Source: a virus. Taken from it: a stretch of 35,222 bases of DNA. The stretch spans positions 1-35,222 of the IMG/VR virus record IMGVR_UViG_3300036851_000520; one strand, written 5' to 3'. The notes beneath the pieces were generated by a model. The model was not told the DNA's origin and did not search any database. It saw nothing but the letters and a program-made list of their open reading frames with translations. Shown here in pieces: positions 11,584 through 30,713 of the stretch; position 1 is the first letter of the stretch; each line of letters opens with the position of its first letter. The position numbers were made by a program, and so were the translations under genes.

Positions 11584-11951
11584 GTCGGGTCATCGTCTGC
11601 GGCTCGCGGGGATGGACCGACAGAGAGCGGATTGCGGACCGTCTCTTCGATCTCAAGCCGACTACGATCGTCGTCCACGGCTCGGCGCGCGGTGCGGACA
11701 GGATCGCTCATCAGGAGGCGGAGAAGCTCGGTTTGTCTGTGGAGGCGCATCCGGCCGATTGGCAGCGTCATGGGAAACGCGCGGGCCATATACGTAACGA
11801 GGAGATGGCTGCACTCGGTGCCGATCTCTGCATCGCCTTCTGGGATGGTTCCCCGCGCGGGACGATGGACATGACTGAGGCTGCAGCTCGGCACCGGATC
11901 GCGGTCGAGATTCAGCACAAGGAGTTTCCCAACCGGGAGACGGTCAGATGA
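11580..11951 (+). CDS. SLOG-fold protein, DUF2493/YspA-like (about 123 aa)
   Basis: The product reads RVIVCGSRGWTD at its N-terminus, VVHGSARGADRIA in the middle and GKRAGHIRNEEM after it, the signatures of DUF2493 proteins of the SLOG superfamily, which bind nucleotides or nucleotide-derived ligands. The best start is a CTG at 11580 in a CTGA overlap, giving the family-typical beginning one or two residues before the first strand; a TTG at 11571 is the alternative. Such proteins are common in phages and are suspected of signalling or anti-defence roles, but the ligand is unknown. Confidence 0.75.
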   Translation: MSRVIVCGSRGWTDRERIADRLFDLKPTTIVVHGSARGADRIAHQEAEKLGLSVEAHPADWQRHGKRAGHIRNEEMAALGADLCIAFWDGSPRGTMDMTEAAARHRIAVEIQHKEFPNRETVR

Positions 11952-13546
11952 CCGAGGCACCCGTCCTTGATGCCCTCTATGCGCTCCGCGATCAGCGCCA
12001 GATCGAGGAGGACCAGGAGCAGCTCCCGCTCTCGCTCTCAGCCTTCGCCCGCGCGGCCTGGCCGACGCTAAAGCCGGACGAGCGCTTCATGCACAACTGG
12101 CACTTGGACGCTATTTCTGCGCATCTGGAGGCCGTCAGTCGGGGCGAGATCACACGACTACAGATCTGGATCCCGCCTGGCACGATGAAGACCGGCCTCG
12201 TCACCGTCTTCCTCCACTGCTGGGAGTGGATGCGCAGGCCGGGACTCCGTTACTGGACAGCCTCCTACGAGACGCGGTTGATCGGGCGCTTCTCGGCGAT
12301 GGCGCGGACGGTGATGATGTCTCCCTGGTATCAGGACCGTTGGGGAGAGATGTTCCGCTTCACTCGCGAGTCCGAGCACTACTACGAGAACGACCACGGC
12401 GGCTCCCGGCTCGCGACCTCGCCGACCTCGACCGGGACGGGCGAGCACGGGCATCGAATCCTGATCGACGATCCTGTCACCGCCCGCGCGGCCGACCCCG
12501 CCTTCTCGGGCAGGCTTGGCTCGGACTTGCGGACGATGCTACGGGAGACGAACGAGTGGTACGACTCGACCGTCTCGACGCGCGGGATCGACGGCTCCGA
12601 GTTCGGCCCGCACGCGGAAGTGCTGGTCATGCAGCGCCTGCACGAGAACGACCTGGCCGGGCACATCCTGGAGAGCGAGGAGTGGACGGTGCTCTGTCTG
12701 CCCGAGCGCTTCGAGGAGGGGCATCCCTACGCCTGGCGGGGCGAGTTCGTACATTCGGCGCTCCGTCTTCCCGACGAGTTGCGAGAGGGCGATCCCCGCG
12801 TCGAGGGGGAACTTCTCTGGCCGCAGAAGCGGGACGAGATCGCCTCCGAGGCGCTGGCCGTCAAGTTGACCAGACACCGGGCCGCGGGGCAACTTCAGCA
12901 GCGTCCTTCTGCTCGAGAGGGTGAGATCCTGAAGCGGGACTGGTGGCGCTTCTACGATCCGCGCGATCCCTACAAGCTCCCTCGCTTCGGCCGGATCATC
13001 GTCTCCGTGGACACCCCGCTCAAGGACAAGGAGACGAACGACTACGTGGCGATCCAGGTCTGGGGGGTGTCGGGCGCGAACCGCTATCTGCTCGACCTGG
13101 ACAAGGCGCATCTGAACTACGGCAAATGTAAGCGGCGAGTGATCGAGATGGCCCGCTGGGCGCGGCAGCGCTGGCCCTCCTGTCCTCACCAGCTCTTGAT
13201 TGAGAACGCGGGCTACGGCGTCGAGTTGATCATGGATCTGAAGCAGGAGGTGACGGGCGTGACCAAGATCTCCCCTGGCCTGGAAGGAGACAAGATCGCC
13301 CGTGCGGAGGCGGCTTCGGACGCGCTCGAGTCGGGCAACTGCTACCTCCCCGGCTACGGGCCGCCCTGGCAGCCCGCCTACGACGAGAAGCACTGTTCGG
13401 CCGAGGTGGCGGACTTCGTCCACTCCTGCGCGCTCTTTCCCAACGGCTCCCACGATGACGACGTGGACGCCTGGTCGCAGGCGATGAACTGGCTGCGGGG
13501 ACGCAACGCGACACCCCTCCGCACTTCGCGCTTCCGCCGCCGCTGA
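11948..13546 (+). CDS. terL: Terminase large subunit (532 aa)
   Basis: This is the packaging ATPase and nuclease that pumps DNA into the procapsid. Residues 74-83 (WIPPGTMKTG) form a Walker A-type loop with K81, and HRILIDDP (about 169-176) is the Walker B strand with its acidic pair. The C-terminal RNase H-like nuclease shows IIVSVDTPLKDKE (first Asp), then LLIENAGYGVEL and HDDDVDAWSQAMNWL, supplying the remaining acidic residues. The length suits the family. The ATG overlaps the SLOG gene stop (ATGA). A 12-kb insert of mostly glycan enzymes separates it from the portal gene, which is usually its near neighbour. Confidence 0.93.
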   Translation: MTEAPVLDALYALRDQRQIEEDQEQLPLSLSAFARAAWPTLKPDERFMHNWHLDAISAHLEAVSRGEITRLQIWIPPGTMKTGLVTVFLHCWEWMRRPGLRYWTASYETRLIGRFSAMARTVMMSPWYQDRWGEMFRFTRESEHYYENDHGGSRLATSPTSTGTGEHGHRILIDDPVTARAADPAFSGRLGSDLRTMLRETNEWYDSTVSTRGIDGSEFGPHAEVLVMQRLHENDLAGHILESEEWTVLCLPERFEEGHPYAWRGEFVHSALRLPDELREGDPRVEGELLWPQKRDEIASEALAVKLTRHRAAGQLQQRPSAREGEILKRDWWRFYDPRDPYKLPRFGRIIVSVDTPLKDKETNDYVAIQVWGVSGANRYLLDLDKAHLNYGKCKRRVIEMARWARQRWPSCPHQLLIENAGYGVELIMDLKQEVTGVTKISPGLEGDKIARAEAASDALESGNCYLPGYGPPWQPAYDEKHCSAEVADFVHSCALFPNGSHDDDVDAWSQAMNWLRGRNATPLRTSRFRRR

Positions 13547-13864: not shown

Positions 13865-13922
13865 TGTGCCGCGAAGGGATTCCTCTCCTTTCCATGCGGC
13901 CCCGGCGAGAGGCACGGCGCTT

Positions 13923-14648
13923 CTGACTCCGGGGCCGCAGCTTCTCGTCGTCGTTCCTGTGCTTGACCGGCCGCAGCGGGTCGGGCCGCTGCTCGACTCG
14001 CTTGGGCGAGCGACGAGCGTCCCCCATCGCGCCCTCTTCGTCTGCACCCCCGGAGACGAGGCCGAGATAGAAGCCCTGCGAGCGGCTGGGGCGGAGATGC
14101 TCGTGACGACCTGGGAGGCGGGGTCAGGGGATTTTTCAATGAAGACGAATTTCGCCTATCGTCAGAGCGAGGAGCCCTGGATCTTCTGCGGCGCCGACGA
14201 CCTCTTCTTCGAGCCCGGCTGGGACGAGGCCGCGCTGACGGTCGCCGAGCGGCACAGGGCTGGGGTGACTGGGACGAACGATGACGCCAACACGCTCGTC
14301 AAGAAGGGGCTCCACGCTACCCATTCGCTGATTCGTCGTTCCTACATCAAAGAGCAGGGCGGCACCTTCGACGGAACGGGCGAGATCTACTCGGAGACCT
14401 ACGATCACCAATGGACTGACTCGGAGTTGGTCGAGACGGCCAAGCTTCGCCGCCAATGGGCCTTCGCCCGGGATTCGGTCGTCCGTCACCTGCACCCGCA
14501 CTGGGGAACGGCCGAGATGGATTGGGTCTACGAGAAGGGGCAGCGGGCGGTCAAGGAGGACTTCGCCCTCTACGTGCAGCGGGTGCGGAAATTGCGGAAA
14601 CTTCATGCTGGACAGCGGCGGGCGCTACGCTATAATCCCTCGCGATGA
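13923..14648 (+). CDS. GT-A glycosyltransferase, GT2-like (241 aa)
   Basis: The first strand LLVVVPVLDRPQRVGPLLDS, the acidic motif FCGADDLFFEPGW (GADD as the DxD-type metal/sugar-nucleotide site) and a later EIYSETYDHQWTD segment are those of an inverting GT-A enzyme. The open frame extends back to a GTG at 13866, but a CTG at 13923, overlapping the stop of a 21-codon frame (13861-13926), places the N-terminus 7 residues before the first strand and is my choice. It opens the glycan island. Donor and acceptor are unknown. Confidence 0.75.
   Translation: MTPGPQLLVVVPVLDRPQRVGPLLDSLGRATSVPHRALFVCTPGDEAEIEALRAAGAEMLVTTWEAGSGDFSMKTNFAYRQSEEPWIFCGADDLFFEPGWDEAALTVAERHRAGVTGTNDDANTLVKKGLHATHSLIRRSYIKEQGGTFDGTGEIYSETYDHQWTDSELVETAKLRRQWAFARDSVVRHLHPHWGTAEMDWVYEKGQRAVKEDFALYVQRVRKLRKLHAGQRRALRYNPSR
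14609..14636 (+). promoter_or_regulatory. Strong promoter inside the glycan island, apparently leaderless
   Basis: TGGACA (14609-14614), a 16-base spacer and a perfect TATAAT (14631-14636) precede the ATG at 14645 by 8 bases, so the mRNA would start at the start codon. It lies in the end of the upstream glycosyltransferase gene and could drive the rest of the island separately from the packaging genes. Confidence 0.65.
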
Positions 14649-14881
14649 GATTCCTGAGCAAGCGCCGCGAGCGGGAGATCGCCGAGCTGCTGGAGAATCA
14701 ACAGGTCGCGATCCAGATTCTTCAATCGATGATCGTCATCTATGCGCAGCAGATGAGAGATCTCGTCGTGGCCTTTCGGATCGCTCAGGATAACCCCGGC
14801 GTGGACATCGGCGCTGACCTTGACAACCTCGTCCGCGATCTTTGTGACATCGTTGCCCAGTTGGAGGAGCATGTCGCGTGA
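14645..14881 (+). CDS. Small helical protein (78 aa)
   Basis: The product is almost entirely helical, with KRREREIAELLENQQVAIQI near the N-terminus and NLVRDLCDIVAQLEEHV at the C-terminus; both have coiled-coil periodicity. It overlaps the end of the upstream gene by 4 bases and starts at the predicted transcription start of the promoter at 14609-14636. It is coupled by GTGA to another coiled-coil gene. Function unknown. Confidence 0.6.
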   Translation: MRFLSKRREREIAELLENQQVAIQILQSMIVIYAQQMRDLVVAFRIAQDNPGVDIGADLDNLVRDLCDIVAQLEEHVA

Positions 14882-15288
14882 CTGTCCCTGATTTCGATCT
14901 TCAACTCGTACGGGAGGCGCTGAACTTCTGGGGCGATTTTGCTGACCATGAGCGCTATGCATGGCCCGAAGATCGCAAGAAAGTAGATCAAGCCCTCGCT
15001 GCCCTTGACCGCCTGGAAGCTCGCCTTGCCGAGCTTGAGCAGGATAACGCGAGACGACTAACCCAAGATGAGTCGCGGGTGATGAACAATCGCCTATTTG
15101 AGATGCATGACTGCGCCAAAGTAGCCGAAGCCCGCCTCGCGCGGCTGAAGGAAGCGCTGGGGGAGATCTCTAAGAGACAGCCAGAAGACGAGGAGAGTCC
15201 CTTCGCGCGACATGCCGTCATGGAGTTCACTACCATTGCCTGCGTCGCCCTCGCCGCCATCGAGGAAGGGGCAGAGGAGAGAGAGTGA
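14878..15288 (+). CDS. Coiled-coil hypothetical protein (136 aa)
   Basis: The segment QALAALDRLEARLAELEQD (about residues 38-56) is a heptad-type coiled coil, followed by another helix (VAEARLARLKEALGEI). Proteins of this composition are common in actinophage accessory regions. It starts at GTG in a GTGA overlap and is coupled to the following glycosyltransferase. It may be a small regulatory or structural protein; no family recognised. Confidence 0.6.
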   Translation: MTVPDFDLQLVREALNFWGDFADHERYAWPEDRKKVDQALAALDRLEARLAELEQDNARRLTQDESRVMNNRLFEMHDCAKVAEARLARLKEALGEISKRQPEDEESPFARHAVMEFTTIACVALAAIEEGAEERE

Positions 15289-15974
15289 ACGTCTCGATTC
15301 TCATCTCTTCTTTCGGGGACGAGAAATGGAAAGATCTTGCCTGGTCGCGCGCCTACCCGAGTGCCGTCGAGCAGGATGCCCATGAAGTTCTCGTCAACCA
15401 CGAGCCTGAAGGGACGCTCGCCTCCTGTCGAAACAACAACGCAGAGCGGACGACAGGCGATTTCTTGTGCCATTTAGATGCTGATGACGAACTGGCTCCT
15501 GGCTACGTCACTGCCATGGAGACGGTAATCAGTCACATAGACGAGGTTCTTGATCCGCTCGATTGCCTCTACACGCCGCGCGTTCAGTATGAGATTTACG
15601 GCAAGTATCAGCCTCCCAAGTTCTGGCCTGAGATACCGCTCTCGACGGGCAGTTGGCTGGTCATTGGCACGCTCGTCCCGCGCGCGCTTTTCTGGGAAGT
15701 TGGCGGCTTTGAAGAGTGGGCCGCCTACGAGGACTGGCAGCTTTTCGCCAAATGCTGGAAGGCAGGCGCGCAGATCGTGAAGGTGCCGGATGCCGTCTAT
15801 CTCGCTCACTGGACGCCTGACTCCCGAAATAAGAGCCTTCCGCGCCAGGAGTTGCTACGGATTCAGTACGAGATTGGGCGTGAACTCTTTCCCGAAGAGT
15901 ACGGCGAAGCCTGGCTGCATCAGCATCTTCGGAGCGCGACGGTCAAAAGACGCCAGAGAGCGCGGGCGCGGTGA
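15285..15974 (+). CDS. Glycosyltransferase family 2 (229 aa)
   Basis: The N-terminal strand VSILISSFGDEKW, the short segment EGTLASCRNNNAERTTGD, the metal-binding FLCHLDADDELAPGY, and GGFEEWAAYEDWQLFAKCWK (the ED catalytic-base region) are the ordered GT2 landmarks. The enzyme would transfer one sugar from a nucleotide donor with inversion. It lacks a membrane segment, so it acts in the cytoplasm, on a lipid-linked, protein or DNA-bound acceptor that cannot be told from sequence. GTG start in a GTGA overlap. Confidence 0.85.
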   Translation: MNVSILISSFGDEKWKDLAWSRAYPSAVEQDAHEVLVNHEPEGTLASCRNNNAERTTGDFLCHLDADDELAPGYVTAMETVISHIDEVLDPLDCLYTPRVQYEIYGKYQPPKFWPEIPLSTGSWLVIGTLVPRALFWEVGGFEEWAAYEDWQLFAKCWKAGAQIVKVPDAVYLAHWTPDSRNKSLPRQELLRIQYEIGRELFPEEYGEAWLHQHLRSATVKRRQRARAR

Positions 15975-16063
15975 GCGATCTAAACTGGGACTCCGTCTGT
16001 GGCGTTCTCTTCAGCTTCGGCGTCTGGGGACTGATCGCCGGACTCGTCTGGTGGCTGATCTGA
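15971..16063 (+). CDS. Tiny membrane peptide (30 aa)
   Basis: A GTG in a GTGA overlap opens a 30-residue frame whose last 20 residues (GVLFSFGVWGLIAGLVWWLI) form one hydrophobic helix. It sits between two glycosyltransferase genes and could anchor a glycosylation complex at the membrane (inference only). Confidence 0.5.
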   Translation: MSDLNWDSVCGVLFSFGVWGLIAGLVWWLI

Positions 16064-16066
16064 GCG

Positions 16067-16717
16067 ATGGAGTACACGTTGGCTCTATTGACGCACGGCG
16101 ACGCGCCCTTACTGGATGTGTGTCTGGATTCATTCTCGGCGCTCCTGAATCCGGCTCCTGAAGAACTAGTCTGCGTCATAGACGGTCTCGGCCGCTTACC
16201 GCCGACTGAGCCGTTCGGTGCCTGGTTCATAAAGCAAAGTCAGAAACAGGAGGGTTTCTGTTCAGCGACGAGAAGATTGTGGAGTCTCGCAGCGGACTCG
16301 TCCTCACCCTTTGTCTTCTATCTGGAGAACGATTTTGTTCTGCTCCGGTCACTGGATCTGGAAGGTGCCATAGCCGTGCTGGACGCAAATCCGATGCTCT
16401 CGCAGATGCAGTTCATGCGCGAGCCGGTGAACCGGGAGGAGCGGCAGGCGGGCGGCGTCATCCCGAAGCATGTTCAGCGAGGCGACGAGTTCGCCGTCCG
16501 TGACGGCTGGATCGAGAACCGGGCTTATGTGATTACGACCAATCCCTCGCTGATGAGATGTGATTTCATGGTCGAGAACCCGTGGCCTGAGTACGACTCT
16601 GAGTGCGAAGGCAGGTTCGGGATAGATCTTGCGTCCAAGGGGTTCAGCGCGGGCATCTGGGGGGACGGCACGCCGCTCGTCCGTCACGTCGGCCGTCGCC
16701 GCGGGCGCGGATACTGA
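16067..16717 (+). CDS. GT-A fold glycosyltransferase (216 aa)
   Basis: The N-terminus YTLALLTHGDAPLLDVCLDS is a GT2-like first strand and helix. PFVFYLENDFVLLRSLDL supplies the acidic END in place of DxD, a motif seen in several phage-type and hypothetical GT-A enzymes. The end is very basic. It lies 3 bases after the upstream stop and its own stop overlaps the gmd start. Substrates unknown. Confidence 0.75.
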   Translation: MEYTLALLTHGDAPLLDVCLDSFSALLNPAPEELVCVIDGLGRLPPTEPFGAWFIKQSQKQEGFCSATRRLWSLAADSSSPFVFYLENDFVLLRSLDLEGAIAVLDANPMLSQMQFMREPVNREERQAGGVIPKHVQRGDEFAVRDGWIENRAYVITTNPSLMRCDFMVENPWPEYDSECEGRFGIDLASKGFSAGIWGDGTPLVRHVGRRRGRGY

Positions 16718-17700
16718 TGAAGCGCGCGCTGATCACCGGAATTGGCGGGCAGGACGGCTCGCTGCTCGTCGAACTCCTGCTCGGCGAGGGCTATGAAGTG
16801 GCTGGGATCGCGAGATGTCGTTTTACCAGCTATGAGAATCTCGATGGGCTTCTCGGAAGGATCCAGTTTTTAAATGCTGATCTGCTCAAATCCGACTCGC
16901 TCGCGCAGGCTCTCGCCGATTTCAAGCCGCAGGAGGTCTACAACTTCGCCTCGCCTTCCTTTGTGCCCCGTTCCTGGGAAGATCCGATTACGACTGCCGA
17001 GTTTGCGGCAATTGGAGTCACGGCGTTACTTGAGGCCATTCGCACGGTAGACGGCGGCATCCGCCTCTACCAAGCGTCCTCGAGCGAGATCTTCGGTTGG
17101 GCGCCTACCGAGACGCCGCAGACCGAGGAGACCCCGCTGCGGCCACTAACTCCCTATGGAGTCGCGAAGGCGTACGGACACTTCATCGTCCAGAGCTATC
17201 GCCGCCGCTATGGATTCTTCGCTTGCTGCGGCATTCTCTACAACCACACTTCGCCAAGGCAGTCTCTTGACTTCCTACCGAGGAAGGTGGCCCGCGCGGC
17301 CGCGGCTATATCGCTTGGCTTGGAGGAGAAGCTCTTGCTCGGTGATCTCAATGCCCGCCGCGACTGGGGTTACGCCCCGGATTACGTGCGTGCGATTTGG
17401 TTGATGTTGCAGCAGTCAGAGCCGGACGACTACGTGATCGCGAGCGGTGAGAGTCATTCGGTCGGGGAGTTGGCCGAGTGTGCCTTCGTTCGCGTCGGTC
17501 TTGACTGGAAGAAGTACGTCCGCAGCGAGACGACCTTATTCCGGGGTCTATCCGAGCTGCATCATTTAATCGGGGATGCTTCCAGGGCGCGGAAGATCCT
17601 AGGCTGGGAATCTACCGTCGGCTTTGAGGATCTCGTCGGCCTGCTCGTGGACGCCGAAGTGAAAGCTCTTTCTGTTTCGGCCGCGGTCGTGAATCGATGA
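16717..17700 (+). CDS. gmd: GDP-mannose 4,6-dehydratase (327 aa)
   Basis: This short-chain dehydrogenase/reductase converts GDP-D-mannose to GDP-4-keto-6-deoxymannose, the precursor of GDP-fucose, GDP-rhamnose and related sugars. Residues 6-14 (TGIGGQDGS) are the nucleotide-binding glycine motif. YQASSSEIFG carries the catalytic Ser and Glu, and TPYGVAKAYGHF the catalytic Tyr and Lys. CGILYNHTSPRQ and LGDLNARRDWGYAPDYV are hallmark Gmd segments, and DDYVIASGESHSV closes the sugar-nucleotide site. It is somewhat shorter than the roughly 370-residue E. coli enzyme. No separate reductase, GDP-fucose synthase or GDP-mannose synthesis gene lies in the window, so the host may supply the precursor and the next step. 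Confidence 0.92.
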   Translation: MKRALITGIGGQDGSLLVELLLGEGYEVAGIARCRFTSYENLDGLLGRIQFLNADLLKSDSLAQALADFKPQEVYNFASPSFVPRSWEDPITTAEFAAIGVTALLEAIRTVDGGIRLYQASSSEIFGWAPTETPQTEETPLRPLTPYGVAKAYGHFIVQSYRRRYGFFACCGILYNHTSPRQSLDFLPRKVARAAAAISLGLEEKLLLGDLNARRDWGYAPDYVRAIWLMLQQSEPDDYVIASGESHSVGELAECAFVRVGLDWKKYVRSETTLFRGLSELHHLIGDASRARKILGWESTVGFEDLVGLLVDAEVKALSVSAAVVNR

Positions 17701-18380
17701 TCGAGCTGGTTTCAATCGCGTTTGGTCAGCCGCGCTTAATTTCCGAGCAGATCAGGCTACTCGGCGCGTACTTGCTGGACGCCTTCTCTCTGACCGTGCT
17801 TGATAACTCAAACGATGAAGGGACCGCTCAGCAGATCCGCGCGGTCTGCGAAGAGGGTCTGACCGCCTACGAACGGATCCAGACGCCCGACCACATGCAC
17901 CACCACGCACTCAATCTGGCGGCGGCCCGCTTCCGCGAACGCGGATCGGAACTCTACGGCTTCCTCGACCACGACATCTTCCCGGTGCGCCCGACGAGGC
18001 TCGTTCCTTACGTCGAAGAGGTCGGGTTCTTCGGAATCGGCCAGAGGACTCCCGCCAGCGGTAATCTCTATCTCTGGCCGGGGTTCTGCTTCTTCTCGCG
18101 CGCTTGGATCGGAGATCGGATGCTCGACTTCGGGGGCGCCGACGGCGGGGATACGGGCTCGGCTATGTGGCCTCTCTTTGCTGAGTCAGATTGGCAGCAC
18201 TTTTATCGGGTTGGGCACGGCTATCAGGCGATTCGTCATCCTGATTCGGTAGGGCTACAAAGTTGGGGCTACGAACTGATCGGTGATTTTGCGCACCTGA
18301 CGAACGGTAGCCGATGGATGATCGTGCCAGATCAAGAAGAGAGAGAGAGACTTCTCTACGAGATGCTGGCGGCTCTCTGA
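17697..18380 (+). CDS. Glycosyltransferase-like protein, GT-A fold (227 aa)
   Basis: The first strand MIELVSIAFGQPRLISEQIR, LTVLDNSNDEG and YGFLDHDIFPVRP (DHD as the metal site) indicate a GT2-type nucleotide-sugar enzyme. Trp- and Gly-rich segments follow. The start lies in an ATGA overlap with gmd, so it is co-translated with the sugar-nucleotide enzyme. A degenerate 16-bp palindrome sits in codons 118-123. Substrate unknown. Confidence 0.75.
   Translation: MIELVSIAFGQPRLISEQIRLLGAYLLDAFSLTVLDNSNDEGTAQQIRAVCEEGLTAYERIQTPDHMHHHALNLAAARFRERGSELYGFLDHDIFPVRPTRLVPYVEEVGFFGIGQRTPASGNLYLWPGFCFFSRAWIGDRMLDFGGADGGDTGSAMWPLFAESDWQHFYRVGHGYQAIRHPDSVGLQSWGYELIGDFAHLTNGSRWMIVPDQEERERLLYEMLAAL
18049..18064. 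repeat. 16-bp palindrome copy 8 (14/16)
   Basis: The sequence CTCCCGCCAGCGGTAA is internal to a glycosyltransferase gene. Here the codons read Pro-Ala-Ser-Gly, a different frame from copy 6. Confidence 0.55.
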
Positions 18381-19174
18381 TGGCGATCGGTCAAGTAGTC
18401 GAATCGGCGATGCTTCATGCCGTGATCAAGGAGCGGGACGAATGCAGGGAGCGGCTCGCCGAGTATGAGACATCGCCAATAGCCGACGCCACGATCTGCA
18501 TCCCCTACTACGCCCAGCCCGAGTATCTGCCCGAGACCCTCGCTTCGGCGATCGGCCAGACGGCGGGCTTGCGCGAGGTGATCGTGGTGGATGACGGCTC
18601 CCCCGATAACGTCGCACGGGAACTCTGTGAACGGTACAAAGCAGATGGCGCGCCCGTCCGCTACGTGCGGGTCACGAACCGCGGCCTCCCGAACGCGCGT
18701 AACACCGGCTTGATGCTCGCCAAGGGCGCGGGTTTCGTCCCTCTCGACTCGGATGACTGGCTCGAGCTAACTTTTCTGGAGAAGACGCTGCCGCTGCTCT
18801 CTGATTACGATGTCTCGTTCGGGGGCCTGCAAGAGCACGGGCCGGTGCGCCAAGGCACTTACATGCCGGGCACTGATCGCCCTGTGGGCGAAGTCACGGT
18901 TGAGCTGGAATGGCAAGCTAACCGCCTCTTTTACTGTGCCGTCTACCGCACTTCGCTGCTTCGCGAAGTCGGAGGCTGGAACGGGCGGATGGTCAACGGG
19001 TACGAGGATTGGGACATGCATATCGACCTACTCAAGCGCGGCGCCCGACTTGGCGGGGTCTCTGAAGTGCTCTTTAATTACAGGACACGTCCAGACTCGA
19101 TGCTCGTCAGCATCACTGGGAAGATGCACCATCAGATCGTGTCCGAGATGCACCGACATCACGATAACTGGTGA
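18380..19174 (+). CDS. Glycosyltransferase family 2 (264 aa)
   Basis: This is a textbook GT2: EVIVVDDGSPDN (nucleotide site), RGLPNARNTGLMLAKGA, PLDSDDWLEL (DxD-type metal site), and GYEDWDMHIDLLKRGA (catalytic base). A 40-residue helical extension (HAVIKERDECRERLAEYE) precedes the domain. The ATG at 18380 starts on the last base of the upstream stop codon, fixing the start well inside the longest frame. It probably adds a sugar to a growing glycan. Confidence 0.88.
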   Translation: MAIGQVVESAMLHAVIKERDECRERLAEYETSPIADATICIPYYAQPEYLPETLASAIGQTAGLREVIVVDDGSPDNVARELCERYKADGAPVRYVRVTNRGLPNARNTGLMLAKGAGFVPLDSDDWLELTFLEKTLPLLSDYDVSFGGLQEHGPVRQGTYMPGTDRPVGEVTVELEWQANRLFYCAVYRTSLLREVGGWNGRMVNGYEDWDMHIDLLKRGARLGGVSEVLFNYRTRPDSMLVSITGKMHHQIVSEMHRHHDNW

Positions 19175-19971
19175 TCGCAGCCATCGCCTTTTCGCGCGAC
19201 CGGGCCGCTCAGTTGGATCTCCTGCTCTCTTCATTGCGCCAGAACGCACCGGGCGTATTTGAGCCGATACACGTCATCTGGCGCGCGACGAATAGCTGGT
19301 TCAAACGTGGCTATGAAGTCTGCGCGAGGAATCATCCGAACGTCTGGTTCGTGCCGGAGGAGACGCTCGCCGCTCAGGTTCGCTATCTGCTCCACTCGGC
19401 TGAGTTCGCAACCTTCTTCACCGACGACGACATCCTCTTCCGGCCGCTGGCCGCGCCTGCGCCTGATGAGTTGCTTGCGGAGGACGATCGCGTCCTCTGC
19501 TTCAGTCTGCGGCTTGGCCTCAACACTACGCGCTGCTATCCCTACGACCGTCGCCAGGGCATTCCCGTCCATCATCCGAAGGGGGAGACGATTCTCTGGG
19601 AATGGAGGCAGGCCGACGCGGACTGGGGCTACCCCGGCTCGCTAGACGGGCATATCTTCCGCGGGGAGACGCTGCAAGAGATCGTTGCTGACGTCGACTT
19701 CCCGAATCCGAACTGGCTGGAGGACGTGCTAATGAGTCGGATGCCGAAGGACAGACCGCTGATGGCGGCTTATCGAGAGAGCAGGCTCGTCTCGATCCCC
19801 GCAAACCGGGTGAACGAGACGCATGGAAACCGCTTCGGCATGACGCATCCGAACGGTACGGCCGATTTGAATGGGCGATATCTAGATGGGGAGCGGATCT
19901 CTCTGGGCGATATGGACTTCAGCGGTGTCGTCGGCGCCCACCACGAGCTTCCCTACGTGTTCGGAAGATGA
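19171..19971 (+). CDS. GT-A fold glycosyltransferase (266 aa)
   Basis: An N-terminal IAAIAFSRDRAAQLDLLLSS strand-helix and the metal motif ATFFTDDDILFRPL identify a GT-A enzyme. The C-terminal half has WGYPGSLDGHIFRGETL and many His and Asn residues. It is less standard than the neighbouring GT2 enzymes and might belong to a phage-enriched subfamily. The GTG start lies in a GTGA overlap. Confidence 0.75.
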   Translation: MIAAIAFSRDRAAQLDLLLSSLRQNAPGVFEPIHVIWRATNSWFKRGYEVCARNHPNVWFVPEETLAAQVRYLLHSAEFATFFTDDDILFRPLAAPAPDELLAEDDRVLCFSLRLGLNTTRCYPYDRRQGIPVHHPKGETILWEWRQADADWGYPGSLDGHIFRGETLQEIVADVDFPNPNWLEDVLMSRMPKDRPLMAAYRESRLVSIPANRVNETHGNRFGMTHPNGTADLNGRYLDGERISLGDMDFSGVVGAHHELPYVFGR

Positions 19972-21731
19972 GTTCTCCCTGGTCGAATGTCGGGACTGAC
20001 TTTCTCTCCGAAGGAAAATGGGCTATTGGCCAGGGGCCACGAGCGCCAGATCGACAACTCTTCCGGGCGCTTCTCCGTCGCTGGCTCGCTGGCTACAACG
20101 GCCCGGGACAGCCGAGGCTGCTTGAGGTCGGTTGTGGTTCCGGCATCGACTTGCAAGTGCTGAATGACGAGGGGCTGCTTGGCGAGGTCGGTTACTCCGG
20201 CTATGACTTGACGCCGAAGTTCGTTGAGCATCTGCGTGAGCGCTTCCCGGAGGAGCGCTTAGAGGTCCGTGATCTTCTTGCGATGGACGAGGAGGGAACT
20301 GCGGGTTTTGTCTGGTGCCGTCATGTGCTTGAGCATGTGGATGATGGGTATCTCGGTCTCAGGAACCTCTGGCGCGCGACGGGTGAAGTACTGCTCGTCT
20401 CCTGGTTCATCCGGCCGACTTGGTCTGAGGCCGAGGTCGGCTGCAAGATCGCGGACGGTTTCCTGCACTGGCGCTACAGCGCGCGACGGATGATCGAGTT
20501 TAAGCGCGAACTGGGAGCGCATCTCTACCGCTTCGACATCGACCATCACTCGAACCAGGCTTCGGTCTGGCTGCTCAGCCGCGAGAAGCGACCTGACCTC
20601 GTGGAGGAGGCGCATCGCTTCCTTGTCTCAGATGAGTTTCTGCGCTCGGCGATCCCGGTGCCCCTGCCGTCGAAAGACCGGGAGGCCGCGCTGGTCGAGG
20701 TCGTCACGGAGGCGGGCGCCGCGCTGGCAGGCGCTCTTCGGGGGATCGAGGGGAAGGAGGAGACAGCGGTCTCACCCTGGACGGAAATGACTTCGGCTCT
20801 TGGCCGTTGTAAGGCTGCGCACTACGGCTCACGGCCGCTCGACCGTTACGACCGCTTTGTCTTCTGGGGTTTCCGCTCAAGCCTCGATTCAATGCGGCAC
20901 ATCTTCCGCCATTTCATCCACGCGCTCGAGCGATGGGGGCGGGAGACGCTCTGGATCGAGGACGACCCGGCCAATCTAGAGCTTCTGCGGCGGGGGGATC
21001 TTATCTTCGCGGTGGATGTCGAGGGGAAGGCGCTCCGGGCAGTTCAAAGAGTGGATTACGTCCTGCACAACTTCGATGGCGAACATCCCGTCTGGGAGGG
21101 ACTGCATGATTGGCGCTTTCTGCGGCTGCAGACCTACACACACGATGCCGAGGAGTACGGGGTGGCCTGGGGATCGGTGCGCCGCTACGACCGCGAACAG
21201 CGGACGCTCTTCCAGCCTTGGGGCACCGATCTTTTGGTGGAGGAGTTTATGGAGCCAGTCTTCAATGGCTCCTCTCACGAGGCTGCTTTCGTGGGCGCTG
21301 TCTGGGACGACGGTGGACTTGGCAATGTCTACGCGATCCGAGAGTTGGAAGAAGCACTGACCGCGCGAGATATGAAGCTTCGCTACCTGACCCAAGTCAC
21401 TGACGAGGAGAACGTGGAGGCCGTGCGTTCGGCGCGGATCGCCCCGGCACTTGCAGGAATATGGCAGGCCGAACGTAATTATCTCCCTTGCCGTACTTTC
21501 AAGAACGTCTCCTACGGCGCGCTTGCGATCACGAACGTGCCCAAGTTCCGGGAGATCTTTGCCGGATGCAGATTGAAGGCCGAGACGATCCCCGATCTCG
21601 TGGAGGAGGCGCTCTCGCTCAGCAAGAAGGACTATCTCGAACTGGTGGCGGCCCAGCAGCAGATCGTGGCTCTCTACACCTATCGCGAATCGCTAGAGGC
21701 GATCGGACGAGCGCTGGAAGAGGGGAAGTAA
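19968..21731 (+). CDS. Methyltransferase - GT-B glycosyltransferase fusion (587 aa)
   Basis: The N-terminal domain (about 45-200) is a class I SAM-dependent methyltransferase: LLEVGCGSGIDL is the SAM-binding loop and VWCRHVLEHVDDGYLGL the post-II acidic motif. The C-terminal part (about 275-587) looks like a GT-B enzyme of the CgeB/Glyco_trans_1-like kind, with RFVFWGFRSSLDSMRHIF at its start, VDYVLHNFDG, and RTFKNVSYGALAITNVPKFR at the donor-binding end. A single protein that transfers and methylates a sugar would fit a capping step (inference). ATGA overlap with the preceding gene; the stop overlaps the next ATG by one base. Confidence 0.8.
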   Translation: MSSPWSNVGTDFLSEGKWAIGQGPRAPDRQLFRALLRRWLAGYNGPGQPRLLEVGCGSGIDLQVLNDEGLLGEVGYSGYDLTPKFVEHLRERFPEERLEVRDLLAMDEEGTAGFVWCRHVLEHVDDGYLGLRNLWRATGEVLLVSWFIRPTWSEAEVGCKIADGFLHWRYSARRMIEFKRELGAHLYRFDIDHHSNQASVWLLSREKRPDLVEEAHRFLVSDEFLRSAIPVPLPSKDREAALVEVVTEAGAALAGALRGIEGKEETAVSPWTEMTSALGRCKAAHYGSRPLDRYDRFVFWGFRSSLDSMRHIFRHFIHALERWGRETLWIEDDPANLELLRRGDLIFAVDVEGKALRAVQRVDYVLHNFDGEHPVWEGLHDWRFLRLQTYTHDAEEYGVAWGSVRRYDREQRTLFQPWGTDLLVEEFMEPVFNGSSHEAAFVGAVWDDGGLGNVYAIRELEEALTARDMKLRYLTQVTDEENVEAVRSARIAPALAGIWQAERNYLPCRTFKNVSYGALAITNVPKFREIFAGCRLKAETIPDLVEEALSLSKKDYLELVAAQQQIVALYTYRESLEAIGRALEEGK

Positions 21732-22126
21732 TGGCAGAAGTTCGTATCTGCGGAAAATGTCAGCGTGTGTGCGGGCCTCACCAGCCTGATCCGTGCTTAG
21801 GTGATATTCCTGGAGTTATGGGTGCATGCTGTGGGCATGGCGATCCTGAGAGGGCATTCATCGGCTGGAAAAATGGACTGACAATACGAGGCTTCTGGAT
21901 TGATGAAGAATCGAGGGAAAAAAATATCGAAAATATCGAATGGGAACGATTGCAATGGGCTGAATATGTCGTGATCATAATTCCGATGGTGCGGGAGACG
22001 CTACATGATGATGCTAACTTCGATGACGAGGCGCTACGTTCGCTCGGTCAGATGTGCGTCGAAGTCGCCCGCGACCAATACGAACGCGAGAACTTTCTCC
22101 CACTGCGACCTGTAGATTTGTCGTGA
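21731..22126 (+). CDS. Conserved CCGHG-type protein (131 aa)
   Basis: CGKCQRVC near the N-terminus and IPGVMGACCGHGDPERAFIG make a Cys/His-rich head resembling a small hypothetical family seen in phages and bacteria (recollection). The remaining residues are helical and acidic. Its middle, around 21890-21990, is visibly richer in A and T than the neighbours, which suggests a separate origin. TAATG junction upstream, GTGA downstream. Function unknown. Confidence 0.65.
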   Translation: MAEVRICGKCQRVCGPHQPDPCLGDIPGVMGACCGHGDPERAFIGWKNGLTIRGFWIDEESREKNIENIEWERLQWAEYVVIIIPMVRETLHDDANFDDEALRSLGQMCVEVARDQYERENFLPLRPVDLS

Positions 22127-22701
22127 GCCTCACTGCCGTTACTCGCCGCATTCAGGAACTTGCCATCCCTGGCTACGGTGAGGATGAGGTGCTGTTCATG
22201 GCCGAGACGATGGCGCGACTGTGGCCGACACACGTCTTCGAGTGGGGCACGAATCGCGGTTCGAGTGCTCGCATTTTTCACGAGGCGAGGGTCCTGATCG
22301 GGATCGACTGTGAGATCCACACGGTTGAGCTGCCGCTCGAACTTGCGCATCTCGACCGTGATCATCCGGGGCAGGCGAGTGGACTCTTCATCGAAGACAT
22401 ACCAGTCAGTCAGTACCTCGGCGACGGCCTAGAGGTCTCGCTTCGTCTCTATGCCGAGGCCGAGCCGGAGCGCGCGCTCTTCTATCTCGATGGCTGCCAT
22501 CGTTACAAGCAGGTTCTCGTCGAGTTGAGAACGCTCTCTACGGCCGTGCCGGAAGCTGTCCTCCTCCTTCACGACACCGGGCATCTGCCCGAGGTCGCGC
22601 GGGCGCTTGCTGACTTTCGTCCGGAGCGCCATTATGAGCAGGAACACCTTGCCTCCCAAGCCGGGATGACCTCACTGTGGCCGAGAGCGTCTGCCTGGTA
22701 A
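22123..22701 (+). CDS. CmcI-like SAM methyltransferase (192 aa)
   Basis: The pattern HVFEWGTNRGSSARIFHEA (SAM loop), LFYLDGCHRYKQVLVELRTL and VLLLHDTGHL is that of the cephalosporin-hydroxylase/CmcI-type class I methyltransferases, many of which O-methylate sugars or small molecules. The order of the D-x-H-Y-x-x-V and HD motifs agrees with the family. The GTG at 22123 lies in a GTGA overlap. Its place between glycosyltransferases suggests sugar O-methylation. Its end overlaps the next gene by 25 bases. Confidence 0.75.
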   Translation: MSLTAVTRRIQELAIPGYGEDEVLFMAETMARLWPTHVFEWGTNRGSSARIFHEARVLIGIDCEIHTVELPLELAHLDRDHPGQASGLFIEDIPVSQYLGDGLEVSLRLYAEAEPERALFYLDGCHRYKQVLVELRTLSTAVPEAVLLLHDTGHLPEVARALADFRPERHYEQEHLASQAGMTSLWPRASAW

Positions 22702-23339
22702 CTGTGGTCTCGGGGCCGGTCTACGACCGTTTCGCCCGCGAGTTCTTCGCTACGGCTAAGGAGCATTTCCGGCCGACCGATTCCGTCCGCTTCGAGATAC
22801 TGCCCGGAGTTGAGGGCTGGCCTGCGGCGACTCTCTACCGCTACCACGTTCTGCTCAGTCACGCCGATCGCCTTGACTGCGATTACCTCTATCTCGTGGA
22901 CGCGGATATGCGCTGCGAAGGGCTGATCGGGCCTGAAATCCTCGGCTCGCTGGTCGCCGTCCGCCATCCTGGTTACGTCGGCAGATCACTCGGGGAGCTT
23001 CCTTATGAGCGGATGCCCGAGTCCTCCGCCTACGTCGCCTGCGAGGAGGGCGGAATCTATTACGCGGGCGGACTTGTCGGCGGTGAGCGCGACTGCTTTC
23101 TCGTCCTCGCCAAGCGGATCGTGAAGCAGATCGGTGAGAACGCGGAACGGGGGATCATCGCGCGCTGGCATGACGAATCTCATTTGAATCGCTGCTTGAT
23201 TGATGATCCTCCGGAGATCACACTTGATCCGTCTTATCTTCATCCAGATGATGACTCCTGGTATCTGACGGTCTGGCCCGAACTGTACGAACGGAGACTG
23301 GTAGCACTGGACAAGAATCCACAAGAGAGAGGTCGATGA
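22677..23339 (+). CDS. Glycosyltransferase family 6, ABO-like (220 aa)
   Basis: The ordered motifs match GT6, the family of the ABO blood-group and alpha-1,3-galactosyltransferases: LYRYHVLLSHADRLDCDYLY, then LVDADMRC (an intact DxD), VAVRHPGYVG, LPYERMPESSAYV, YYAGGLVGG, and WHDESHLNRC with LDPSYLHPD. GT6 enzymes are retaining and add Gal or GalNAc in alpha-1,3 linkage. It is a compact soluble form without the animal-type membrane stem. The GTG at 22677 overlaps the preceding gene but is needed to include the first strand. Confidence 0.88.
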   Translation: MAESVCLVTVVSGPVYDRFAREFFATAKEHFRPTDSVRFEILPGVEGWPAATLYRYHVLLSHADRLDCDYLYLVDADMRCEGLIGPEILGSLVAVRHPGYVGRSLGELPYERMPESSAYVACEEGGIYYAGGLVGGERDCFLVLAKRIVKQIGENAERGIIARWHDESHLNRCLIDDPPEITLDPSYLHPDDDSWYLTVWPELYERRLVALDKNPQERGR

Positions 23340-24121
23340 TGAGCAGTTGCCTGGTGACGATGGTCAGGGATGAAGCCGACATCGTGGAGGCGTTCGTGCG
23401 GCACTCAGCGACGCAAGTAGACGCTTTGATCGTGGCCGACAACCTCTCCTCGGATGGGACGCGCGAGACCCTAAACGAACTTTCGCATGAGTTACCGCTA
23501 ACGGTAATAGACGATCCGGATCTGGCTTACTTTCAATCGAGGAAGATGAGCGCGCTTGGGCAGCGGGCATTCGCCGCGGGGCACTCCTGGGGCGTCTTCG
23601 CAGATGCCGATGAATGCTGGTACGTCGCCGACGACCCAAACAGGCGCATCGCCGACTATCTGGACGGACTCGCGCCCGACTTGCAATTGGTCACGGGCTT
23701 ACTTTACAACCACATTCCGACTGGCGCGGACGATCTGAACGAGACGAATCCATTCAAGAGGATCGGGTGGCGCAAGCGGGAGCCCGCGCCGCTGCCGAAG
23801 GTCTGCTGCCGCCTTCATCCTTCCCTCGTCATCGATGCAGGCAACCATTCGGCGCGGTACCGGGGCCGTGCCCTTCGCTCGCCTGGCCTTGCGCTGCGGC
23901 ATTTCTCTTGGCGAACGCCCGCGCAGTACGCGGCGAAAATTAAGATCGGGCGCGCTGCTTACGCCGCTACCAACCTTCCCGAGGACATCGGCGTCCACTG
24001 GCGGATGTGGGAGGGCGCATCCGACGAGCAGATCGAGGAGCATTTTCGGGAGTGGTTCTGGTCGGAGCATCCGCGAAAGGACGACAGTTTGATTCACGAT
24101 CCGGCTCCGGTTGTAGGCTAA
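23336..24121 (+). CDS. Glycosyltransferase family 2-like (261 aa)
   Basis: SCLVTMVRDEADIVEAFVRH is the strand-helix typical of Glyco_tranf_2_4-type enzymes, followed by ALIVADNLSSDGTRETL and GVFADADECWYV (DADE as the metal site). Later segments are His/Trp rich and basic. The ATG at 23336 overlaps the GT6 stop. A perfect 16-bp palindrome interrupts its early codons. It closes the main glycan island. Confidence 0.82.
   Translation: MMSSCLVTMVRDEADIVEAFVRHSATQVDALIVADNLSSDGTRETLNELSHELPLTVIDDPDLAYFQSRKMSALGQRAFAAGHSWGVFADADECWYVADDPNRRIADYLDGLAPDLQLVTGLLYNHIPTGADDLNETNPFKRIGWRKREPAPLPKVCCRLHPSLVIDAGNHSARYRGRALRSPGLALRHFSWRTPAQYAAKIKIGRAAYAATNLPEDIGVHWRMWEGASDEQIEEHFREWFWSEHPRKDDSLIHDPAPVVG
23492..23507. 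repeat. 16-bp palindrome copy 9 (16/16)
   Basis: The sequence TTACCGCTAACGGTAA is deep inside a glycosyltransferase gene and reads Leu-Pro-Leu-Thr-Val there. Confidence 0.8.
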
Positions 24122-24968: not shown

Positions 24969-25066
24969 TGCGCGTCTACTGCAATGGGACGCTCGTCTGG
25001 ATGAAAGTGATCGGCATGTGGTGGACCTGTATGGCTTGCGGGAAGAAGCTGTGGAGGGCGCGGTGA
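24968..25066 (+). CDS. Tiny cysteine-containing protein (32 aa)
   Basis: The ATG at 24968 uses the last base of the preceding stop, and the frame ends in a GTGA overlap. The product holds TCMACGKKL, a CxxC knuckle, plus a single Cys near the N-terminus and several Trp residues. A three-Cys zinc site is conceivable. Confidence 0.5.
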   Translation: MRVYCNGTLVWMKVIGMWWTCMACGKKLWRAR

Positions 25067-25395
25067 GCGTACCCGACTGGTGGAGCACAATTCTTTTGTC
25101 TGTCGCAGCCTGGCGGACATTTCAACTGCTCGCCAACGACGATATTCTCGACCGCCCGCGGCGCTGGCTGCTCCGTCTTGGGAAGGAATGGCAGAAAGAG
25201 GGAGATCCGTTTCCGGACAATTATCGCTTAGGCTGGGCGCAATTTCTGACCTGCCCCTATTGCATGGGGGCGCACGTTGCCTTATGGTGGTGGATTGCCT
25301 GGGAGATCGAGGCGCGCTGGACGGAGATCATCGCCGCCCCCTTTGTGATCTCCGCGGGAGTGATCGCTGCCGCCAAGATTCTCTCGGACGAGTAA
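25063..25395 (+). CDS. DUF1360-like membrane protein (110 aa)
   Basis: Hydrophobic segments at about residues 9-25 (TILLSVAAWRTFQLLA), 65-80 (AHVALWWWIAWEI) and 90-105 (AAPFVISAGVIAAAKIL) surround LTCPYCMGAH. This pattern is that of DUF1360, a small membrane family found in phages and bacteria. The GTG start lies in a GTGA overlap. It precedes the portal module. Function unknown. Confidence 0.68.
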   Translation: MSVPDWWSTILLSVAAWRTFQLLANDDILDRPRRWLLRLGKEWQKEGDPFPDNYRLGWAQFLTCPYCMGAHVALWWWIAWEIEARWTEIIAAPFVISAGVIAAAKILSDE

Positions 25396-25517: not shown

Positions 25518-27332
25518 TTGGCGCTGCCCCTCACACGATCTACCCGCCGTGGTCTGACTGCCTCTGCGGTCAGACTCGGCGACCGCGACTCCGAGTACTC
25601 GAAGCGTAAGGAGATGCCCTGGCAGAAACGGACGCTCGAGTACATCGACCTGATCCCGGAACTGAACTTCTGGTCCCGCTTCTACCCGCGGATGCTGAAG
25701 CAGGTGCGCTTCTTCCCCGGATTGATGTCCGGGAGCGGTGAGATCGAGGAGATCAAAGAAGGGCCGCCGGTCGATTATCTGAACCGGATCAGAGACCCGG
25801 GCGGCGGACGTTCTCAGATTCAGGCGGCCTATGGGAGGCTGATGGCGACCACGGGAGAGGGATCCCTCTTCGGGCGCAACTTGGACGATGAAGATGAACG
25901 CTGGTCGTTCGTCTGGAACGACGAGCTTGAGATCGAATATGACGCCGACGAGAACGTCCGCTCGATCACGCACAAAGCAGGACAGCGAGGAAGCCAGAAG
26001 GACAAGAAATACGGTCCCGAGGAGGCGGTCGTCTACCGGATGTGGACGCCGCACCCCCGAAACTCGGCGGAGGCCGAGTCTCCGATGCGCTCGGTCCTCG
26101 ACATCGCCGAGGAGCTGATCGTTCTGACTTGGGCGGTGCGGGCAACCGGGCTGACCCGACTCACGAACGGTGTCCTCTTCATGCCCCAGCAGGCTTCTCC
26201 GCCCTCGGCCGAGCCGATCGGGGACGAGGACGCCCTCAACGATCCCTACCAGGCTGATTGGGCCGACTACGTAACCGCCCAGATCGAGAACTTCGGGGAT
26301 GCCGAGGCGCGCGTCCCCTTCATCACCTGGATGGACGCCGATCTGATCGAGAAGGTGCGCTTCGAGGGCATCCACAATCCGCAGACCGACTACATGGAGC
26401 GTGATCTACGCAAAGAGGCGATTGAGCGGCTCGCGATCGGGCTCGACGCGCCACCCGAAGCGCTGCGCGGCCTCGGCTCGACGAACCACTGGGCGGCCCT
26501 TCAGATTCTGGGGGATATGTGGAAAAGCCACGGATCCCCGCTCGCCATGCAGTTCGCAGGCGATCTGGCCGAGGTCTATCTTCTTCCTTCCCTGCGCGAG
26601 ACGGAGTATCCCGACTGGAACAAGGTCGTGATCGGGATCGACGCCTCTCAGGTTGTGGTCAAGCCCGACCGCTCGGACGACGCCGACCGCGCGATCGACC
26701 GACTGGCGATTGGCTGGGAGGGTTATCGGAGGATGAAGAACATTCCCGAGTCCTACGCTCCCGGCGAGGAGGAGCGGAATGAGATCGCGGCCTTGCTCAA
26801 AAGTCGCGTCTCCTCTCGTCCAGGGGCAGGCGCGCCCTCGGTGAACGGAAGACCGACAGAAGAAGGTCCTCCTGAGCCCGGCCCGGAGGGGGACTCAGGC
26901 CGCAGGACGCGGGTCGTTGCCTCGGCGGGCCGAGAGCTGGGAGCAGCCGAGATGGCACTCATGCGCTGCCGCGAATTGGCGGGGACGAGGCTCCGACACA
27001 AGCGGACCTGGGAGGCTCTGGAGAAAATCTGCCTCGACTGCGCGAAGACGGCCTCGGACATTCCGCTCGCGCTGATTCCTTCTTCGGTGGGGCCGGAGAC
27101 GGTCAAACGGCTCCACCTTGATCCGCTGGTGCTGGTCAAGGGTGGGGCCGACCATCTGCGCCCGCTGCTTCTGACCTGGGGCTACAGCGAGGCTCAGGTG
27201 GGCACGGTCTGCGAGATGGTCGAGGTCTACGCCGCTCGCACTCTGTTCGAGGAGCGGACGCCCGCTCTGCCCTCGGGATTCTCCTCTCATATCGTCGGAA
27301 TGAAGGAGCTGACAAGTGCCGTGGTCGATTAG
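25518..27332 (+). CDS. Portal protein (604 aa)
   Basis: The portal ring forms the DNA channel at the capsid vertex. The sequence has the actinophage portal pattern: an N-terminal LIPELNFWSRFYPRMLKQVR, VDYLNRIRDPGGGRSQIQAA, VVYRMWTPHPRNSAEAESPM followed by LDIAEELIVLTWAVRATG, FEGIHNPQTDYMERDLRKEA, then LAIGLDAPPEALRGLGSTNH, which is highly typical. The C-terminal quarter is Pro/Gly-rich then helical. The start is a TTG at 25518 without a clear ribosome binding site; it lies 5 bases after the CGCG peptide stop. Confidence 0.88.
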   Translation: MALPLTRSTRRGLTASAVRLGDRDSEYSKRKEMPWQKRTLEYIDLIPELNFWSRFYPRMLKQVRFFPGLMSGSGEIEEIKEGPPVDYLNRIRDPGGGRSQIQAAYGRLMATTGEGSLFGRNLDDEDERWSFVWNDELEIEYDADENVRSITHKAGQRGSQKDKKYGPEEAVVYRMWTPHPRNSAEAESPMRSVLDIAEELIVLTWAVRATGLTRLTNGVLFMPQQASPPSAEPIGDEDALNDPYQADWADYVTAQIENFGDAEARVPFITWMDADLIEKVRFEGIHNPQTDYMERDLRKEAIERLAIGLDAPPEALRGLGSTNHWAALQILGDMWKSHGSPLAMQFAGDLAEVYLLPSLRETEYPDWNKVVIGIDASQVVVKPDRSDDADRAIDRLAIGWEGYRRMKNIPESYAPGEEERNEIAALLKSRVSSRPGAGAPSVNGRPTEEGPPEPGPEGDSGRRTRVVASAGRELGAAEMALMRCRELAGTRLRHKRTWEALEKICLDCAKTASDIPLALIPSSVGPETVKRLHLDPLVLVKGGADHLRPLLLTWGYSEAQVGTVCEMVEVYAARTLFEERTPALPSGFSSHIVGMKELTSAVVD

Positions 27333-29926: not shown

Positions 29927-30588
29927 ACATCGTCTATCGTGTCCAGCACCTGCGCGGGCGCGAGGAATGCCTAGTGCGGCTTCTCTCAGGATTACCGCCA
30001 ACGGTAATCCTAACGGTAGAGATCATCACCGATGAAGAGACGCACGACCCGAATCCCTGGCGCAACTATAAACGCTGCCTGAGTGATCTGCCGAGTTATG
30101 CGACGCATCTAGTCGTGATTCAGGACGATGCGCAAGTTTGTCATAACTTCCCGCAGGCAGTCGAACAAGTGGTCAAGGCGAGACCCGAGAATGTGCTCTC
30201 GCTTTTCGTCGGCGGCCTCTCTAACCGCACGAAGCGAGACTTCCTCTTAGCGCTCAAGGCTGGAAGGTCATGGTCGCCAGTCAACTTCCGCGACATTCAT
30301 CACGTCGTCTGTCTCATCTGGCCTGTCGCCAAGGCACAATCGTTCCTTGCCTGGGCGGAGACCGCGACTCTGCCCGGGCACAAACGGATGCCCCGCTCCG
30401 ACGACGCCATTGTTGGCTACTGGGCGCGCTCGCAGCATGAGACGGTCTGGGCGACCGTTCCCTCGCTAGTTGAGCATCCAGACGATGTGGCTTCAACCGT
30501 GGGGCGTCGCGCGAAGGGCGGGGAGGACAAAGGGCGAGTAGCACTTTCATTCATAGGTGAACGGGATCCGCTAGAGATCAATTGGTAG
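29923..30588 (+). CDS. Glycosyltransferase-like protein inside the head module (221 aa)
   Basis: The best N-terminus is a CTG at 29923 (CTGA overlap, AGGGG upstream), which gives NIVYRVQHLRGREE as first strand; the first conventional start is a GTG 17 codons later. THLVVIQDDAQVCHNF carries the acidic QDDA motif of a GT-A site and LVEHPDDVASTVG lies near the end. The family looks like phage glycosyltransferases that act on virion proteins; this is inferred from its place between the protease and the capsid gene. Confidence 0.68.
   Translation: MNIVYRVQHLRGREECLVRLLSGLPPTVILTVEIITDEETHDPNPWRNYKRCLSDLPSYATHLVVIQDDAQVCHNFPQAVEQVVKARPENVLSLFVGGLSNRTKRDFLLALKAGRSWSPVNFRDIHHVVCLIWPVAKAQSFLAWAETATLPGHKRMPRSDDAIVGYWARSQHETVWATVPSLVEHPDDVASTVGRRAKGGEDKGRVALSFIGERDPLEINW
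29992..30007. repeat. 16-bp palindrome copy 11 (16/16), extended to 22 bp
   Basis: The symmetry extends to GGATTACCGCCAACGG plus TAATCC (29989-30010), broken only at the centre. A further right half, CTAACGGTAG, follows at 30010-30019. Confidence 0.8.
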
Positions 30589-30713
30589 AGAGTTTTCGCT
30601 AGCGACCGCTTGCTAGTGCATACTTGCGCGCAGCGAACCCGTGCGGGGCTCGGGAGCGCAAGTCGGGTCCGGGGGACTCCGGCGTGATACGTCACGTCAA
30701 CAAGGAGTCAGAG
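30589..30713 (+). promoter_or_regulatory. Structured leader of the capsid gene
   Basis: This 125-bp gap holds no gene. CATACT (30619-30624) is a possible -10 box with no clear -35. CTTGCGC (30623-30629) pairs with GCGCAAG (30656-30662), and a small hairpin CGTGA-TACG-TCACG (about 30681-30694) lies just before AAGGAG. Such hairpins could stabilise the capsid mRNA. Confidence 0.4.

Follow-up and report, generated by a model that had tools for sequence, protein, structure and literature searches.

The viral record IMGVR_UViG_3300036851_000520, from an uncultured phage, carries an island of glycan-building enzymes between the genes for the terminase large subunit (TerL) and the portal protein. 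It comprises nine glycosyltransferase (GT) domains, two methyltransferase domains and one GDP-mannose 4,6-dehydratase (GMD), with small open reading frames (ORFs) among them. The window analyzed is the whole 35,222-base linear record, and genes beyond this fragment lie outside its view. We found a real, conserved-but-swappable glycan locus of an actinophage-like lineage, which can be seen as a larger, modular form of a known system; we think it rather likely that the locus O-glycosylates virion proteins, with a fixed attachment part and a swappable elongation part. What was computed here is the gene content and its coupling, the pattern of conservation, the recurrence in phages of an unrelated type, and the folds; the acceptor, the sugar identity, the order of steps and the benefit are what we infer.

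Composition of the terminase-portal island

Enzyme families were assigned with Pfam, PHROGs and NCBIfam profiles. The genes of the island are as follows.

13866..14648, +, GTa, weakly GT2-like, beside the terminase gene (phrog_14945, 5.5e-4)
14645..14881, +, small coupled ORF, 78 aa, no function assigned
14878..15288, +, small coupled ORF, coiled-coil-like, 136 aa, no function assigned
15285..15974, +, GT2b, GT2 glycosyltransferase (PF10111, 1.1e-6; cluster CL5)
16067..16717, +, GTc, galactosyltransferase-like GT (phrog_3047, 5.9e-7)
16717..17700, +, GMD, GDP-mannose 4,6-dehydratase, its ATG overlapping the GTc stop (PF16363, 6e-103)
17697..18380, +, GTd, predicted GT-A fold without sequence family (AlphaFold2 pLDDT 86.6; Foldseek)
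18380..19174, +, GT2e, GT2 glycosyltransferase, its ATG overlapping the GTd stop (PF00535, 1.6e-24)
19171..19971, +, GTf, predicted GT-A fold without sequence family (AlphaFold2 pLDDT 79.9; Foldseek 1foa, 2e-8)
19968..21731, +, MT_GTB, methyltransferase domain fused to a GT-B-like domain (PF13489, 1.1e-9)
21731..22126, +, small coupled ORF, 131 aa, no function assigned
22123..22701, +, MT24, weakly CmcI/Methyltransf_24-like sugar O-methyltransferase (PF13578, 0.003; PF04989, 0.005; NF045824, 0.001)
22677..23339, +, GT6 glycosyltransferase with DXD motif (PF03414, 5.6e-31; BoGT6a, 9e-31)
23336..24121, +, GT2_4-type glycosyltransferase (PF13704, 1.5e-10)

The run lies on the + strand, and adjacent ORFs overlap at every junction from GTc (16067) to GT2_4 (24121), with the start ATGs of GMD, GT2e and the 131-aa ORF overlapping the preceding stop codon. 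An earlier note on this DNA had described a tightly coupled enzyme run at 13923-24121, with about eight GTs and one methyltransferase. The coupled run does lie there; however, nine GT domains and two methyltransferase domains were counted, the first GT ORF opens at 13866, the slot runs on to 25395 with non-glycan genes, and small non-enzyme ORFs are interspersed at 14645-15288 and 21731-22126. The same note's description of a multi-enzyme island able to build and methylate a glycan and to supply a deoxysugar agrees with an enzyme set that is intact within a structural operon and has counterparts in relatives. Nine GT domains and a GMD in a single coupled run, together with independent homologous runs in relatives, appear to be beyond chance.

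The individual assignments differ in strength. GMD keeps the TGxxGQDG, S/T-S-E and YxxxK catalytic positions when aligned to the solved GMDs 2z1m and 1n7g, and scores 302 of the 415 bits of the NCBIfam equivalog, below its cut-off; profile and motifs thus identify it as a predicted member of the GDP-mannose 4,6-dehydratase family. GT6 matches BoGT6a and the ABO transferases, carrying DAD at the position of NAN in BoGT6a, and its profile match and DXD motif point to GT6 family membership. The assignment of 22123-22701 as a methyltransferase is weak, and the GT-B half of 19968-21731 has below-cut-off support, with a free-standing homologue matching PF13524 at 1.7e-4. The island enzymes are without membrane segments, except for one borderline value in GMD, which belongs to a soluble enzyme family.

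GTd and GTf gave no family match in the libraries searched, and a sequence search of GTd against solved structures returned no match. Both proteins were modeled with AlphaFold2 from homologue alignments and compared with the PDB by Foldseek: the GTd model matched TarP, SpsA, WrtF and BoGT6a, and the GTf model best matched GnT I (GT13; 1foa, 2e-8). The top matches of both are GT-A enzymes (TM about 0.4-0.5), and so the count of GT domains is nine; according to the models, GTd and GTf have the fold of GT-A glycosyltransferases. The locus offers GTs, GTd and GTf among them, whose specificity no family match predicts.

The run is bracketed, as judged by PHROGs matches, by TerL upstream and by the portal, a protease-like protein and the major capsid protein (MCP) downstream; the terminase and portal assignments are firm. 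Outside the run, a tenth GT (GThead) precedes the capsid gene and a methyltransferase-like ORF follows the major tail gene; these correspond to the two further enzymes that had been noticed among the head genes, the second at the motif level only.

11948..13546, +, TerL, left border (phrog_38, 5e-76)
25063..25395, +, small membrane protein, conserved right border of the slot, present in 15 relatives' slots (phrog_781, 1e-11)
25518..27332, +, portal, right border (phrog_776, 2e-75)
29974..30588, +, GThead, phrog_854 GT between protease and capsid genes (phrog_854, 2.8e-22)
30624..32489, +, MCP, candidate acceptor (phrog_777, 1e-58)
33475..34134, +, major tail protein, candidate acceptor (phrog_792, 2e-26)
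34139..34837, +, methyltransferase-like ORF, motif level only (PF13578, 0.09; 50% to L134)

Near the right end of the slot, 24126-24410 encodes a small E3-binding-domain protein (PF02817, 1e-12), homologues of which lie near the slot in contigs L124 and L126.

Fixed and exchanged genes in the lineage

Terminase and portal searches yielded about 26 distinct related contigs, and hence about 27 records including the window; among cultured phages, no nucleotide-level relative of the window was found. In the search of viral contigs for the portal, a single sequence gave no matches and an alignment query succeeded. The slot is occupied in every one of the relatives, with a terminase-portal distance of 3.8-9.7 kb in the 11 showing both genes and of 12.0 kb in the window. 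GTa lies downstream of the terminase gene in all 13 relatives with the terminase in view, and GThead lies between the protease and capsid genes in 21 of the 21 that cover both. Across the about 27 records, the lineage carries two or more GT genes in each case where the region concerned is in view.

Most other cargo is swapped. Clustering of island ORFs placed GT2b (CL5) in 7 loci including the window, that is, in 6 relatives, and a differing GT cluster, CL0, in 18 loci. GTc recurs within the lineage only in L090 (44%), and the window's GMD, GTd, GT2e, GTf, MT_GTB, MT24, GT6 and GT2_4 turned up in none of the about 26 relatives. The slots of relatives sporadically hold PIG-L deacetylases, FkbM and other methyltransferases, GT32-like and GT2_4 enzymes, as well as members of the UDP-glucose/GDP-mannose dehydrogenase and GFO/IDH families. 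In a Pfam tally of 145 slot ORFs, GT2 (46), GT2_4 (17) and methyltransferases lead. An island absent or decayed in close relatives had been named in the earlier note as a refuting outcome; instead, the relatives' slots hold glycan genes, and GTa and GThead are kept. The accompanying statement that the terminase-portal module is usually compact was too strong: this gap is 38 bp in Mozy, and in cultured phages of the same portal family it can hold 3-5 kb of small genes.

Several observations were made alongside in these contigs. A Ro60/TROVE protein is encoded between the glycan genes and the portal gene in L116 (8154-9776) and L117 (8145-9773; TROVE 1.5e-43, vWA_Ro60 9e-49), and an asparagine-synthase domain (2e-47) lies within the island slot of L123 (5327-6169). 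In L131, about 6.7 kb between the portal and protease genes (9708-16450) constitute a second insertion site in the lineage. The ORF at 1867-2598 of L130 and its homologues in L132, L135, L136 and L138 carry an RFGDGD motif that recalls GT-D glycosyltransferases, with no Pfam match.

The same cassette in a second phage type

GTd, GT2e, GTf, the methyltransferase/GT-B pair, the CmcI-like methyltransferase and GT6 form a cassette that recurs elsewhere. By using MT_GTB and GTd as queries, a second phage type (L146-type) was found in IMG/VR, whose terminase (best match phrog_2), portal (phrog_113) and capsid (phrog_1005) all belong to families different from those of the window; a weak match to phrog_38 is all that the two terminases have in common. 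Four L146-type contigs show both terminase and portal genes (L151, L152, L154 and L159), and in these the stretch between the two holds GTf, the methyltransferase, GT-B, GT6, further methyltransferases, GTd and GT2e; in the remaining L146-type loci that reach the portal gene, GT2e precedes it. MT24 is often, not always, part of these cassettes. Most of the cassette products are 37-52% identical to those of the window. The genes stand in a different order, and the fused methyltransferase/GT-B gene of the window has two separate genes as its counterpart; L156 and L157 also encode a GMD and a GDP-L-fucose synthase (NF047922, about 290 bits, below the strict cut-off). Two portal relatives of this type, L169 and L170, have no cassette genes in the 1 kb before the portal gene, so the slot varies here too; a scan of viral contigs with the L146 portal brought in few further ones that extend far enough upstream for the slot to be assessed.

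The simplest account of these data is that a functional gene set was exchanged horizontally into a slot that tolerates it, and the 37-52% identity implies that the exchange was old or indirect. With variable cargo and a cassette shared with an unrelated phage type, glycan diversification in phages, akin to capsule diversification in bacteria, becomes testable. We also considered a general linkage of GMD and GT6 in phages, which was unsupported: tblastn at 1e-8 found GT6 in none of the best 80 GMD phage loci.

Proposed mechanism and acceptor

In the proposed mechanism, GTa after the terminase gene and GThead before the capsid gene would form the fixed part that attaches or primes a sugar, and the swappable part would extend the glycan, decorate it and add methyl groups. 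The GTs, soluble and cytoplasmic, would act in sequence on nucleotide sugars; GMD would feed a GDP-6-deoxyhexose route, probably leading to GDP-L-fucose and completed by a host enzyme or an unseen phage enzyme; and methyltransferases would cap hydroxyls. Co-expression with the structural genes may allow capsid and/or tail-tube subunits to be modified before or during assembly. A cassette swap would then change the surface glycan of the particle with the assembly genes constant, and the benefit may be masking from surface-binding factors or altered adsorption.

The earlier note had left virion proteins, phage DNA and host envelope open as targets. Position of the locus, homology of GThead to mycobacteriophage GTs, absence of membrane machinery from the island and failure to find a thymidylate-synthase or TET/JBP homologue favor the virion over DNA or the host envelope, and none of them is proof. 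Among candidate acceptors, the major tail protein ends in Ser, after a variable linker, in all 14 complete lineage sequences; this serves as a lead rather than a test, because the lineage tail proteins are close homologues. In Mozy, DGS forms the C-terminus of the capsid protein and of the tail protein alike. Several points weigh against virion glycosylation by this locus. Most lineage capsid C-termini end in C, CD or V rather than Ser/Thr, and the signs of an acceptor are indirect. GThead was undetected in the L146-type clade, where attachment would need another GT. Proven virion systems have only a few GTs, against nine or more here; genes for DNA modification or envelope synthesis could lie beyond the 35-kb fragment, and Ro60, asparagine-synthase and peptidase genes in the slots of some relatives make the slot in part a general cargo site.

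A different target would be the host envelope, the surface glycans of the infected cell being altered so that adsorption of competitors, or of progeny to debris, is blocked. Methyltransferase and deoxysugar genes are known from cell-wall glycan pathways too, and GT clusters of the cyanophage P-SSM2 with GMD and GT6, which are reportedly read as surface-polysaccharide genes, share this general make-up. However, no phosphoglycosyl transferase, flippase or polymerase was matched by Pfam among the island enzymes of the 35-kb fragment, which, with the lack of membrane segments, speaks against the phage producing an envelope glycan by itself; the membrane proteins that would mark a serotype-conversion (gtr) or lipid-linked cluster were likewise not found in it. 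The host could still supply the membrane steps, but the locus sits within the late structural operon, with GThead beside the capsid gene in every relative covering that region, and we regard envelope modification as unlikely. Hypermodification of phage DNA, with GTs assembling glycans on modified bases as a protection against restriction, appears quite unlikely. Viruses are reported to encode GTs that add diverse glycans to DNA as hypermodifications (Pyle et al. 2024, as cited in PMC12619734), and C5-cytosine-methylase-like genes occur in 4 of 15 records. In the same 15 records, many of them fragmentary, neither PF00303 (thymidylate-synthase/hydroxymethylase) nor PF12851 (TET/JBP) was matched, the latter also giving no match in control genomes and so lacking a positive control; this makes for a weak argument against DNA glycosylation. 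In addition, GThead has relatives among the GTs of phages for which protein glycosylation is reported, and the genes sit in the head operon, not with replication genes.

The gap might also tolerate any insert, with glycan genes as frequent passengers without a joint function. The non-glycan genes of some relatives fit such a cargo site, as does FuzzBuster, whose terminase-portal gap has 17 genes, none annotated as a GT. The retention of GTa and GThead in all testable relatives, the recurrence of the six-gene set as a block in an unrelated phage type, and the dominance of GTs and methyltransferases among the slot Pfam matches speak against it, and we consider it very doubtful. A bolder extension of virion glycosylation is a changeable coat: phages of unrelated types would trade a modular glycan cassette at one fixed slot between terminase and portal, and would combine conserved attachment enzymes on the virion with swappable elongation enzymes, much as bacteria switch capsules. 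In the version with GMD, GDP-fucose synthase and GT6, the outer glycan would be fucosylated and histo-blood-group-like. Characterized A/B-type GT6 enzymes act on fucosylated galactose, and a GDP-fucose route combined with GT6 suggests a fucosylated product, hence a blood-group-like outer glycan. However, the lack of a general GMD-GT6 linkage in phages makes the blood-group-like reading speculative, and the proposal as a whole is rather improbable.

Comparison with known systems

The reports of glycosylated phage virions come from a few mycobacteriophages, whose gene sets are small. Glycans on capsid and tail-tube proteins of mycobacteriophages were described by Freeman et al. 2023, as cited in PMC11600133 and PMC12619734, and these papers cite work later than that on Corndog as placing glycans at the C-termini of both proteins. 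Corndog has an O-methyltransferase and three GTs between the portal and protease genes, for which its authors proposed capsid modification (PMC4351075); for the enzymes of Corndog and cluster O (gp35-gp38), capsid and tail tube are the stated targets (PMC4351075; Freeman 2023, cited in PMC11600133). These four genes resemble the window in combining a methyltransferase and GTs inside the head operon beside the portal gene, whereas the window has about 11 enzyme genes, in the terminase-portal gap, with GMD, GT6 and swappable content. GThead is 31% identical to a GT of the cluster F1 (Che8/Mozy-type) phage Mozy, and both belong to phrog_854; together with its head-operon setting, this suggests that GThead is homologous to, or placed like, the GTs of the mycobacteriophage systems. 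The Mozy GTs lie at the right genome end rather than before the capsid gene, and Mozy lacks a terminase-portal island. Phendrix also has a phrog_854 GT, with the head-tail genes on one side of it and the tail genes on the other. In the cyanophage P-SSM2, a single run (PSSM2_257-271) likewise combines GMD-like nucleotide-sugar enzymes, GT2s, a GT1, a methyltransferase and a GT6, but its cluster lies elsewhere than between terminase and portal, its target is unproven, and its GT6 is about 34% identical to that of the window.

Host

The sole genome match was the lineage member L141 (JAHFCU010000051.1), a contig in a metagenome-assembled genome labeled Gemmatimonadetes, which may be a host hint or a mis-binned phage contig. 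Portal homologues were found mainly in actinophages of Mycobacterium, Gordonia and Microbacterium, and the host of the window phage is probably a member of the Actinomycetota.

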